A stretch of 64,000 bases of DNA from Bacteroidales bacterium (GTDB taxonomy: Bacteria; Bacteroidota; Bacteroidia; Bacteroidales; UBA932). Location: contig JAKSKN010000001.1 in the NCBI GenBank assembly GCA_024401695.1, positions 248,001 to 312,000 on the forward strand. The letters are read 5' to 3'. Shown here in pieces: positions 8,113-31,449 of this stretch (its first letter is position 1; each line of letters starts with the position of its first letter). The notes beneath the pieces were generated by a model. The model searched no databases. It was not told where the DNA came from and saw only the letters and a list, made by a program, of their open reading frames with translations. The position numbers and the translations under genes were made by a program.

Positions 8113-9072
8113 TTATTCCCACTCAATGGTGGCCTGAGGTTTTGAAGATATGTCGAATACGACTCTGTTGACACCCTTGACGTTGGCAATGATGTCGTGC
8201 TGAACCTTGTCGAGGATGTCCCAAGGGACCTGGACGACTGAAGCGGTGACGGCGTCAACGCTGTTGACCGCGCGGAGTGCGATGACATTGTCATAGGTGC
8301 GGCAGCCGTCGGAAACGCCTGTGGTCTTGACAGGGACGAAGATGGCGGCAGCCTGCCAGATCTTGTCGTACCAGCCGGTCTCGCGGAGGGTATTGATCCA
8401 GATGGCGTCTGCTTCCTGGAGGATGGCGATCTTCTCAGGAGTGAGCTCGCCGAGGCAGCGTACGCCGAGGCCCGGACCCGGGAACGGGTGACGGTTGACG
8501 AAGCTGGCATCGAGGCCGAGTTCAAAGCCCACCTCACGGACTTCAAACTTGTAGAGATACTTCAGAGGCTCAACCAGGCCAAGATGCATTTCCTCAGGAA
8601 GTCCACCTACGTTATGGTGGCTCTTGATTGTGCCCTTGTCGGACTTGGATTCAGCGATATCAGGCCAGATGGTGCCCTGTGCGAGCCACTTGGCGTCCGA
8701 GACCTTGTGAGCCTCCTCATTGAAGACATCGATGAAAGTCTTGCCGATAGCCTTGCGCTTGAGCTCAGGATCGGTGATGCCCTTGCAGGCAGCGAAGAAT
8801 CTGTCAGCGGCACGTACGCCCTTGACATTGAGGCCAAGCACCTTGTAGTGCTCAAGAACGTCCTCATATTCGTTCTTGCGAAGAAGGCCGTGATCAACGA
8901 AGATGCACTGCAGCTTGCTGCCGATTGCCTTGTTGATAAGCATTGCTGTCACGGTAGAGTCAACTCCGCCAGACAAACCGAGAATAACCACGTCAGATCC
9001 GACCTGCTCCTTGATGGCAGCGACCTGCTCTGCAACGAACGCCTTGGCGTTCAATTTTTCTCCGTTGTACAT
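8113..9072 (-). CDS. guaA: GMP synthase, ATP-pyrophosphatase/synthase part only
   Basis: Adenylates XMP and aminates it to GMP, the last step of GMP synthesis. The protein (319 aa) begins almost directly with the ATP pyrophosphatase P-loop LSGGVDS (residues 34-39). It then shows the GMP-synthase motifs [12 protein letters not shown] and the C-terminal dimerisation domain with SDGCRTYD and a terminal TIEWE. Bacterial GuaA is normally about 510-525 aa with an N-terminal class I glutaminase domain of about 190 aa; that domain is absent. Only 20 bp separate its start from guaB, so no domain has been missed upstream. It must use free ammonia or a glutaminase subunit encoded elsewhere, as in archaea. 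Confidence 0.93.
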
Positions 9073-9092
9073 TGTTTGGAATCTGTTTGAAA

Positions 9093-10571
9093 TTAATCTC
9101 CTCTAGTGTAATTAGGTGTTTCCTTCGTGATGGTGATGTCGTGCGGATGACTTTCCGTCATACCGCTTGCCGTTACACGGGTGAACTTTGCCTTCTGCAG
9201 TTCTTCAATATTGTGGGCACCGCAGTAGCCCATACCGGACCGGAGTCCGCCTACTAACTGATATACCGTCTCTTCGAGCGTTCCCTTGTAAGGGACGCGT
9301 CCGACGATGCCTTCCGGGACGAGCTTCTTGGTATCCTTCGTGCCTGACTGGAAGTAACGGTCCTTTGAACCGGCTTCCATTGCATCGAGAGAGCCCATAC
9401 CGCGATATGTCTTGAACTTGCGTCCGTTGTAGATGATGGTTTCGCCCGGAGCTTCTTCAGTACCGGCGAACATAGAGCCGCACATCACGCAGTTGCCTCC
9501 TGCAGCGAGAGCCTTGACAACGTCGCCGGAGTAGCGCAGACCGCCGTCGGCTATTACCGGAACGCCGTACTCGGCGGCAACCTTCGCACATTCGTAGATT
9601 GCGGTAAGCTGAGGCACGCCGACGCCCGCTACGATGCGGGTGGTGCAGATGGAGCCCGGGCCGATGCCAACCTTGATACCGTCCGCGCCGGCCTCGATGA
9701 GGGCCTTTGCCGCGTCAGCGGTGGCTATATTGCCGACCACCACTTCAAGTGTAGGGTAGACGGCCTTGATCTCCCTGAGCTTGGTGAGGACGTTGCGGCT
9801 GTGGCCGTGGGCGCAGTCGAGGACGACTGCATCGACACCTTCCGCAACAAGGGCGGCCACACGCTGGAGAGCGTCGCCGGTGATGCCGATTCCCGCCGCC
9901 ACGCGGAGGCGTCCCGTTGAATCCTTGCAGGCATTCGGGTGTTCCTTCTCCTTCTGGAGGTCACGATAGGTGATGAGGCCTACGATCTTCCCGTCCCCGT
10001 CGACGACAGGGAGCTTTTCGACCTTGTATTTCTGAAGGACCTCACGCACGTGGGCGCGGTTGGTCTCCGTGTTCAGGATCGTAGCGAGACCCTCGGAGGT
10101 CATTATGTCCCTGATAAGCACTGAAGGGTCCTCGAGGAAACGGACGTCACGGTTGGTCACGATTCCCACGAGCTTGTTGCCATCATCGGTGACAGGGATG
10201 CCGCCGATATGGTTCTCGCGCATCATATCGAGAGCTTCGCCCACAGTCTGGTCCGCCTTGATGGTCACAGGGTCGTTGATCATTCCGCTTTCGGCCCTTT
10301 TCACCTTGCGGACTTCGGCCGCCTGGCTGGCGATGGACATATTTTTATGAATAACGCCGATTCCACCTTCTCTCGCAAGAGCAATGGCCATCGGCGCTTC
10401 TGTAACTGTGTCCATTGCGGCGGACACGATAGGAATGTTCAAGTTGATGTTCCTCGAAAAACGGCTTGTAAGGCACACGTCACAAGGGAGGACTTCGGAA
10501 TAGGCCGGGATGAGCAGAACGTCATCAAATGTCAAGCCTTCAAGGGCAATTCTATCTTCGATGAATGACAT
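9093..10571 (-). CDS. guaB: IMP dehydrogenase
   Basis: Oxidises IMP to XMP with NAD, the rate-limiting step toward GMP. The 492-aa protein has the usual order: the first part of the TIM barrel ([14 protein letters not shown]), a CBS-domain pair at about residues 95-205, then the catalytic barrel with [11 protein letters not shown], which carries the active-site cysteine, and the mobile flap region RGMGSLDAM. It is the first gene of a guaB-guaA pair with a 20-bp gap. A well-formed promoter lies directly upstream. Confidence 0.97.
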
Positions 10572-30088: not shown

Positions 30089-30090
30089 TT

Positions 30091-31449
30091 ATGGGAGTTA
30101 TCGGAATTTTCGGAGTGCGCAATGCCTCCACGCTGATTTACTACGGTCTTCACAACCTCCAGCACCGCGGTCAGGAAGGTGCCGGTATGGCTGTGTTCGA
30201 CGGGAACGGCCAGTGCCGCCGCCACCGCGGACTCGGACTGGTGAACAAGGTTTTCTGCCCGACCACCATCGAATCGCTCGAAGGCAGCATAGGCATAGGT
30301 TCCGTCTGCTATGCCAACGCAGAAAAGGCGGCCCTGGACAATGTGCAGCCTATCTTCTTCCACCACAAGAACGGTGACTTCGCCATCGCGGGCGACGGCA
30401 ATGTCGTCAATGCCAGGCAGATTGCCGAATATCTTGAGAAGAAGGGCACCATCTTCCAGACAGCCACGGACGGCGAGCTCCTCGCCCACCTCATCAAGAA
30501 ACATCGTGACGACGAGAGCCGCATCGACAACATCGTGAATGCACTCAATATGATGGAAGGCGGATTCTCCTTCCTCATAATGACGCGCAAGCGCATATAT
30601 GCCTGCCGCGACAAATACGGCATCAAGCCTCTCTGCATAGGCAGGCTCGGCGACGGATATGTCGTCAGCAGCGAATCCTGCGCCTTTGAGATCATCGGGG
30701 CGACCTTCCTGCGCGACATAGAGCCGGGCGAGATCGTCAGCTTCGACGAATACGGCATACGTTCGACCAAGTATTCAAAGTTCCAGCGCCACAAGATGTG
30801 CGCGATGGAATACATATATCTCGCCCGTCCGGACAGCGACATCGACGGCTGCAACATCCACGCCTACCGCAAGGAGAGCGGCCGCCGTCTGTACCGCGAG
30901 TGCCCGGTGGAGGCAGATATGGTCGTCGGTGTGCCGGAGTCCAGCCTCAGCGCCGCGATGGGTTATGCCGAGGAAAGCGGCATCCCGTACGAGATGGGCC
31001 TGGTCAAGCACAAATATATGGGCCGCACCTTCATCGCTCCGGTTCAAGAGATGCGTGAGCTGGGCGTCAAGATGAAGCTCAGCCCCGTGCGCTCCATCGT
31101 CAGGGGCAAGCGCATAGTGCTTGTCGACGACTCCATCGTGCGAGGCACCACTTCACTCAAGATAGTGAAGCTGCTCCGCGAGGCGGGAGCCACCGAGGTG
31201 CACGTACGCATCGCCAGCCCTATGATGAAGTATCCTTGCTTCTACGGCGTGGACACCTCCACACCCGAACAGCTGCTCTGCTCCCACAGGACTCTCGAAG
31301 AGGCCTGCGCCGCCATCGGAGCCGACTCACTCGGATATCTCAGTCCGGAATCGACCTGTGCATCCTGCTTCGGCTGTGCCGACCCTTGCCAGGCGTGCTT
31401 CACGGGTGAATATCCTACAGCACTTTATAATGACGAAGTAAAAAGATAG
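30091..31449 (+). CDS. purF: PurF-type PRPP amidotransferase lacking the glutaminase nucleophile
   Basis: Catalyses the first committed purine step, PRPP to phosphoribosylamine. The C-terminal phosphoribosyltransferase half is intact (IVLVDDSIVRGTT, LGYLSPEST), as is the cysteine-rich end CASCFGCADPCQACFTG. The Ntn glutaminase half is eroded. Mature PurF begins with Cys1 (CGIFGI or similar) but here the protein begins M-G-V-I-G-I-F-G, with no Cys. Arg73 of the glutamine site is Cys73 (GSVCYAN instead of G-x-x-RYAT), and the HNGN oxyanion segment is GDGN. Upstream in-frame codons contain no start that could supply a Cys. The enzyme should work only with ammonia. Confidence 0.92.
   Translation: MGVIGIFGVRNASTLIYYGLHNLQHRGQEGAGMAVFDGNGQCRRHRGLGLVNKVFCPTTIESLEGSIGIGSVCYANAEKAALDNVQPIFFHHKNGDFAIAGDGNVVNARQIAEYLEKKGTIFQTATDGELLAHLIKKHRDDESRIDNIVNALNMMEGGFSFLIMTRKRIYACRDKYGIKPLCIGRLGDGYVVSSESCAFEIIGATFLRDIEPGEIVSFDEYGIRSTKYSKFQRHKMCAMEYIYLARPDSDIDGCNIHAYRKESGRRLYRECPVEADMVVGVPESSLSAAMGYAEESGIPYEMGLVKHKYMGRTFIAPVQEMRELGVKMKLSPVRSIVRGKRIVLVDDSIVRGTTSLKIVKLLREAGATEVHVRIASPMMKYPCFYGVDTSTPEQLLCSHRTLEEACAAIGADSLGYLSPESTCASCFGCADPCQACFTGEYPTALYNDEVKR

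Follow-up and report, generated by a model that had tools for sequence, protein, structure and literature searches.

Glutamine amidotransferases are the textbook route by which amide nitrogen enters nucleotides, with ammonia being channelled inside the enzyme. The present analysis concerns three of them, PurF, CarA and GuaA, in a stretch of 64,000 nucleotides from a Bacteroidales bacterium (assembly GCA_024401695.1, contig JAKSKN010000001.1, positions 248,001 to 312,000 of the forward strand), the whole of which is referred to as the window. All three have lost glutaminase function, each in its own way: CarA by exchange of the catalytic Cys and His, PurF by loss of Cys1 together with two glutamine-site residues, and GuaA by absence of the entire domain. 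This bears out the first-pass annotation of the window, which had further described the synthase halves as intact—the transferase of PurF is indeed under very strong constraint—and PurL as retaining its GICNGFQ and GHSER motifs, as is the case in the window.

The genes concerned belong to an island in which pyrBI, pyrE, pyrF, pyrD, pyrK, carB, carA and pyrC occupy one strand and purC1 to folD the other, with guaB-guaA nearby (Table 1). The genome of the window (G000; 2.65 Mb, 71 contigs, 97.2% complete) is one of the 151 genomes that constitute the genus sample, the genus being taken as Candidatus Cryptobacteroides; further genomes and loci are designated by G and L numbers. The purine island around PurF is retained in relatives. 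Two purC-like genes are present in the island of the window (24487-25170 and 29369-30088), the first of which scores 115.9 bits against a curated cut-off of 189.9 bits.

Table 1. Nucleotide biosynthesis genes of the window (positions within the window).
Feature	Position	Strand	Basis
guaA, synthase only, 319 aa, without glutaminase domain	8113..9072	-	
guaB, encoding IMP dehydrogenase, immediately 5' of guaA	9093..10571	-	
pyrBI fusion, pyrE, pyrF, pyrD, pyrK	14751..18803	-	names from Pfam domains
carB, carbamoyl phosphate synthase large subunit	18803..21991	-	
carA, decaying class, Cys replaced by Gly, His by Gln; N-terminal domain kept	21984..23066	-	
pyrC, dihydroorotase	23084..24343	-	
purC1 (227 aa, under purC cut-off) and purE	24487..25637	+	
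purL, glutaminase motifs intact, internal control	25683..29369	+	
purC2	29369..30088	+	
purF, dead class, Met-Gly for Cys1, Arg73 replaced by Cys, oxyanion Asn by Asp; phosphoribosyltransferase domain kept	30091..31449	+	
purM, purN, purH, purD, folD; remainder of purine island	31455..36833	+	

A dead class of PurF

The PurF of the window starts with MGVIGIFG, placing a Met before Gly2 where the enzyme of Bacillus subtilis has Cys1, and it reads GSVCYAN and GDGN for GHVRYAT and HNGN, respectively. The glutamine-site residues are named Arg73, Asn101 and Asp127 in the E. coli numbering; the oxyanion Asn position corresponds to residue 102 of the window protein. The protein matches the glutamine phosphoribosyl pyrophosphate (PRPP) amidotransferase model TIGR01134 over its full length with 465.2 bits (curated cut-off 350), and the PRPP-loop residues D346, D347, S348, V350, R351, G352, T353 and T354 are invariant in 41 rows comprising dead and intact PurFs.

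Full-length proteins of this class, with 67–79% identity to the window PurF, are encoded in 47 of the 151 genus genomes, not counting G001, in which there are fragments only. All 47 were read and all lack Cys1, the N-terminus being M-G or M-S, while Cys1 is present in all 21 other full-length genus PurFs that were read, a set chosen mainly from near-complete or double genomes and omitting the distant paralogue L319. In 29 of the 47 genomes, nothing but the dead-class protein matches PurF at 1e-30; ten of these 29 reach a completeness of 95% or more (G000, G107, G161, G057, G076, G153, G077, G117, G035, and G059). L319 itself (G124:C44:3000-7000) is a PurF-like protein of 35% identity that starts with GGIFG, likewise without Cys1, and matches at 32–35% identity are found in many genus genomes.

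Technical explanations for the missing nucleophile were rejected. The ATG of the window purF lies 2 bases after the purC2 stop, and no upstream start yields a Cys before GV; nor does a Cys immediately precede the G-V or S-V start in any of the other 46 members of the class. In-frame upstream residues are present in a few of these 46, some with a Cys elsewhere, and do not resemble a PurF start. An assembly or sequencing error is ruled out because identical dead-site residues recur across many genomes.

For PurF beyond the genus, 84,980 named genomes were scanned with two peptide patterns which, having been built from the dead class, are biased to it. Among the best 80 of at least 589 loci, Cys1 is absent in 27, namely in 23 Bacteroidales metagenome-assembled genomes (MAGs), many of them from the rumen and including Cryptobacteroides choladohippi (L164), in three MAGs labelled Alistipes (L167, L168, and L178) and in one Tissierellia MAG (L207). 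The PurF of L178 is intermediate, starting with Met-Ser without a propeptide and having Leu for Arg73, with HNGN intact. Altogether there are 73 Cys-less PurF loci in Bacteroidales (47 in the genus and 26 named), corresponding to 64 distinct proteins, since nine of the named ones are identical to proteins of the genus sample. For rows L213, L214, L277 and L280, in which the Cys is shifted in the alignment, the state of Cys1 was taken from direct reading.

In a PurF tree of 127 rows (119 of them different; two short rows left out), built by a quick method with the catalytic columns included, a single branch with a Shimodaira–Hasegawa-like approximate likelihood ratio (SH-aLRT) value of 98 separates the 56 Cys-less Bacteroidales rows from the rest; their neighbours are the intact L187 and L175 (Candidatus Cryptobacteroides onthequi). 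Rows from Tissierellia are located elsewhere, with Cys-bearing rows nested among Ser rows, and the whole tree needs a minimum of three changes. From the Tissierellia family to which L207 belongs, PurF was obtained for 19 of 20 genomes; Ser takes the place of Cys1 in 12 of them and Cys is kept in seven.

An acidic residue at the oxyanion position

The loss of Cys1 is accompanied by a recurrent exchange of the oxyanion Asn. This residue is replaced by Asp or Glu in all 47 dead-class PurFs of the genus and in 23 of the 26 named Cys-less Bacteroidales PurFs from the best-80 set (the Asn being kept in L167, L168, and L178), and by Asp in all 19 PurFs of the Tissierellia family. It is kept in all 74 intact PurFs (21 from the genus and 53 named ones of the best-80 set). 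On present sequences, the Tissierellia family is a second, independent origin of the Asn exchange in PurF. A carboxylate in the former glutamine pocket of the dead class could bind ammonium; in PMC12017579, external NH3 is proposed to reach PurF through the glutamine site.

CarA and GuaA

The longest open reading frame for the window CarA (21984-23291, minus strand) runs from a GTG at 23291; the probable start, fitting that of the family, is the ATG at 23066, giving 360 aa. Its nucleophile elbow reads GIGLGCE and its His motif FQLES, where the ordinary CarAs of relatives have GICLG, GICMG or GVCLG, and FHPEA, respectively. Both substitutions also emerge when the protein is aligned with the CarA chains of E. 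coli. The protein scores 335.1 bits against TIGR01368, the model for the glutamine-hydrolysing small subunit of carbamoyl phosphate synthase (curated cut-off 307.35).

CarAs of this decaying class were found in 27 of the 151 genus genomes, at 48–73% identity to the window protein, compared with 32–38% for ordinary CarA; one locus was read per genome, with the G076 gene being split across two contigs and a partial second copy in G099 excluded. They fall into two clades. In clade I, Gly replaces the Cys in 16 of 16 proteins, while in clade II (n = 11) the Cys is lost to Ser or Gly in seven and kept with a His-to-Tyr exchange in two (G142 and G001). In total, the Cys is lost in 23 of 27 and either Cys or His in 25 of 27. 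The decaying class is the only CarA in 12 of the 27 genomes, several of which are incomplete. Outside the class, Asp replaces the CarA Cys in two Rikenellaceae MAGs with intact PurF (L169 and L176), and Gly replaces it in G166, the genome of L178. The variety of these replacements suggests repeated decay; the CarA tree by itself requires just two or three changes.

The guaA ATG in the window lies 20 bases behind the guaB stop; there is, therefore, no space for a glutaminase domain. Synthase-only GuaA was found at 14 of the 30 loci read, these 14 forming one group, and 13 of the 14 genomes have no further GuaA match at 1e-30. The genus also has another, second type of short GuaA, about 328 aa long and assigned by open-frame length only. 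A glutaminase hidden upstream was considered and rejected: four of the 14 short loci have 41–170 in-frame upstream residues. Apart from a single 13-residue match with an E-value of 0.09, the similarity of these residues to the long L101 frame is confined to its initial 85 residues, of which only the final seven do not precede its glutaminase start. Separately, a long-frame guaA stands in tandem with a second, downstream guaA of synthase size (about 330 aa) at G079:C24:3715-5738, a pairing also present in G003, G161 and others.

Other glutaminases in the genome and genus

The 97.2%-complete genome of the window yielded no further CarA, PurF or GuaA with an intact glutaminase; it contains one CarA match (E 0.001) and one PurF and one GuaA match (1e-30). 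The class I glutaminase model matches only the decaying CarA and a 203-residue frame corresponding to HisH, with intact GICVGMQ and HPEKS motifs, and thus reveals no separate GuaA glutaminase subunit; likewise, the dead-class PurF is the sole match to the N-terminal nucleophile (Ntn) model PF13522. The copies or subunit that would have spoken against the first-pass annotation are, hence, not among the genes recovered from this genome.

PurL served as an internal control. Its motifs are readable in 35 of 39 island loci and both the Cys and the His motif are kept in 34, including 25 of 25 Bacteroidales loci with a dead PurF and a readable PurL; outside this set, they are also kept in 4 of 4 additional genus loci. 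The one exception among the 35 is the Tissierellia L207, where the PurL at 5786-9490 reads GIGAGLH for GICNGFQ and SSIDR for GHSER, and lies beside the Cys-less PurF in one operon.

PyrG is absent rather than dead in the window's genome (no match at 0.001). As a candidate fourth dead enzyme it was rejected, given that the nucleophile Cys is present at 29 of the 30 PyrG loci read in the genus, two of which end before the His motif. A full-length PyrG with Gly for Cys (GVGLGMQ) and an intact His motif is encoded in G056 (99% complete; L058/L314). The route to uridine monophosphate looks complete in the window, though no CTP synthase (PyrG) was found in G000.

GlmS has no match at 1e-20 in the window's genome, nor in 25 of 63 better genus genomes, and many of the remaining matches are just the PurF glutaminase domain; in genomes without GlmS, glucosamine-6-phosphate is perhaps supplied by another route, such as reversed NagB or salvage. 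The GltB glutaminase domain has no match at 0.001 in the window's genome and is missing from 14 of 18 genus genomes tested, four of them with intact PurF. Since such absences also occur in genomes with intact PurF, they are not specific, and loss of GlmS and GltB as part of one switch was not adopted. Lost glutamine synthesis is ruled out as a cause in the window's genome by two glutamine synthetase matches.

Association of the losses

In G000, G106 and G096, the sole PurF is of the dead class, the sole CarA is of the decaying class, and GuaA is short and belongs to the group of the window protein; with a short GuaA of the second type, the same combination is present in G153 (97% complete) and G127. 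PyrG was found in none of these genomes. Fisher tests on 2x2 tables of the 151 genomes, which ignore kinship and incompleteness and are, thus, hints only, associate sole dead-class PurF with decaying CarA only (8/12; p 2e-4) and with short GuaA (p 0.03), as well as decaying CarA only with short GuaA (7/12; p 7e-6). Missing PyrG goes along with decaying CarA only (11/12 compared with 44/139; p 6e-5), with short GuaA (p 0.007) and, at p 0.08, with sole dead-class PurF.

The first-pass annotation had called the loss coordinated and suspected a lineage-wide trait. The losses do co-occur in the uncorrected tests above; "coordinated", however, is too strong a word and "repeated, stepwise and associated" a more fitting description, given that 27 of the 47 genomes with a dead-class PurF have no decaying CarA, that many genomes carry second copies (see below), that PyrG is absent and not dead, and that PurL is intact in the Bacteroidales loci read. 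As to its extent, the trait pertains to much of the genus, according to the counts for PurF and CarA given above, and not to the whole of it.

Probable use of ammonia in place of glutamine

From the residues, their conservation and, for PurF, the constraint on its domains, PurF, CarA-CarB and GuaA are probably working enzymes that dispense with glutamine hydrolysis and use free ammonia; this reading outranks the others for PurF and suits CarA and GuaA well. In PurF, from which the nucleophile is gone, the dead glutaminase domain would stay as a scaffold and possible entry port for ammonia, and the Asp or Glu in place of the oxyanion Asn may hold ammonium at the former glutamine site. The dead domain of CarA may have been retained as a partner needed by CarB, whereas in GuaA the glutaminase domain has been removed outright. 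Ample ammonia in the habitat would be the reason why such losses were tolerated or favoured.

The principal alternative is neutral or reductive decay, in which nucleoside-salvaging organisms are losing the pathway and the dead domains mark the onset of gene loss. Nucleotide genes do seem to be often lost in the genus, as judged from the lack of a match for CarA (1e-30) in 58, for PurF (1e-30) in 40 and for PyrG in 55 of the 151 genomes, figures that are partly due to genome incompleteness. However, the dead-class PurFs form one well-supported group over 56 rows, the surrounding island is kept, and the constraint on their transferase domain is no weaker than in intact PurFs. In terms of the ratio of nonsynonymous to synonymous substitution rates (dN/dS), calculated for pairs of dead PurFs of 84–98.5% identity from 73 loci, which share branches and often have a high synonymous rate (dS), the median is 0.144 for the glutaminase and 0.034 for the transferase domain (377 pairs), while for intact PurFs, a small set of 14 pairs, it is 0.039 and 0.056, respectively. 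In the 0.90 bin of transferase identity, the glutaminase identity is 0.734 for dead and 0.821 for intact pairs. PurL of the same islands has medians of 0.177 for the glutaminase part and 0.190 (133 pairs), and PurL from loci with mostly intact PurF of 0.132 and 0.141 (8 pairs); there is no contrast like that in PurF. The difference between the PurF domains thus argues for a working transferase, with the glutaminase domain freed from its old task and some constraint left, and decay appears improbable.

Alternatively, a glutaminase acting in trans, or another ammonia-releasing enzyme, might feed the synthases via the dead domains. PurF and CarA do retain these domains, and two-subunit GMP synthases are known from archaea (PMC10526850). 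Yet the class I and Ntn models give no unassigned candidate in the window's genome. HisH stands among neighbours that we take to be hisB, hisA and hisF, and supply in trans is, thus, quite unlikely. Least credible is a new function of the dead-class proteins as regulators or scaffolds, with the real activities coming from unrecognised genes or salvage: second PurF matches in some genomes would leave room for it and the supply of cytidine triphosphate is at least unexplained where PyrG was not found, but in most dead-class genomes no other PurF was detected, and the window and relatives alike encode the protein, with its invariant PRPP loop, within a complete purine operon.

Several observations weigh against the use of ammonia by these enzymes, in addition to the shared branches and high dS of the PurF pairs. 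A second PurF match is present in 18 of the 47 genomes with a dead-class PurF (partial in G034), and the four of these that were read (G129, G160, G085, and G048) all bear Cys1. Similarly, an ordinary CarA match accompanies the decaying one in 15 of 27 genomes, and two clade II proteins of the decaying class (G099 and G047) retain both Cys and His. The constraint test is weak for CarA, because the dN/dS of the glutaminase part and the rest is 0.184 and 0.127 in clade I and 0.308 and 0.204 in clade II, and intact CarA gives 0.245 and 0.202 as well (7 pairs). Lastly, the cell is not glutamine-free, as PurL and HisH need glutamine and glutamine synthetase is present; besides PurL and HisH, no live glutaminase turned up in the window's genome, in a search that did not cover PdxT, NAD synthetase and GatA-type or other amidases.

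Relation to known systems

Precedents for enzymes of this kind are the crenarchaeal PurF' and vertebrate carbamoyl phosphate synthase 1 (CPS1). According to PMC3261824 (2011), the Crenarchaea studied each carry a PurF along with a Cys-less PurF', for which an ammonia-dependent PRPP aminotransferase is one possibility; in Methanocorpusculum labreanum, a second PurF carries Ser, and in E. coli PurF, replacement of Cys1 by Ala or Ser abolishes the activity with glutamine and leaves the use of ammonia. Like PurF', the window PurF lacks the N-terminal Cys and is encoded near purine genes. Unlike it, the dead-class protein is bacterial and frequently the sole PurF detected—the window's genome gives no match to a Cys-bearing PurF beside it—and occurs in that genome with a dead CarA and a synthase-only GuaA.

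The CarA-like domain of vertebrate CPS1 has lost the catalytic Cys. CPS1, which uses ammonia, resembles the window CarA in this domain and is among its nearest solved chains (6uel and 5dot). In contrast, CPS1 is a single fused mitochondrial protein of the urea cycle that is activated by N-acetylglutamate (PMC4655335), and the window CarA is a separate bacterial protein encoded in a pyrimidine operon with CarB.

For GuaA, the counterpart is subunit B of the archaeal two-subunit GMP synthase (2dpl and 6jp9), which is likewise synthase-only and of similar length. The archaeal enzyme has a partner glutaminase subunit, however, none of which was found in the window's genome, and the short GuaAs of the window type are one group adjoining the full-length GuaAs of the genus. 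ATP-PPase modules of GMP synthases can take external ammonia, as reported in PMC10526850. The closest solved structures to the window PurF by sequence are those of B. subtilis PurF (1ao0 and 1gph), from which it differs in lacking the propeptide (known from B. subtilis PurF; see also PMC3261824), Cys1, Arg73 and the oxyanion Asn. No report of a Cys-less bacterial PurF as the sole enzyme was found among titles and abstract openings, which is weak evidence for novelty, with most subscription journals lying outside the search.

Biological significance

According to PMC5552732, ammonia supports the growth of Prevotella ruminicola, a rumen bacterium, and ammonium is suggested to be more stable in the rumen than elsewhere. 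A wider proposition may be entertained tentatively, at somewhat less than even odds: separate lineages of anaerobes plausibly exposed to ample ammonia—Cryptobacteroides of rumen and gut, some cecal MAGs labelled Alistipes, and the Tissierellia family—may independently have turned PurF, and in Bacteroidales also CarA and GuaA, into obligate ammonia enzymes, by way of a convergent acidic switch that would make the glutamine pocket an ammonium entry port.

If the use of free ammonia holds true, a conserved bacterial class, the sole PurF detected in ten genomes with a completeness of 95% or more, would demonstrate that natural enzymes can do without channelling. The dead-class enzymes would serve as a genomic marker for ammonia-rich niches and as natural ammonia-only enzymes for channel studies, and insensitivity to glutamine analogues would be predicted. 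For uncultured gut Bacteroidales, a clear growth prediction would follow, namely that they would need ammonia from their surroundings to grow when no preformed nucleotides are supplied.

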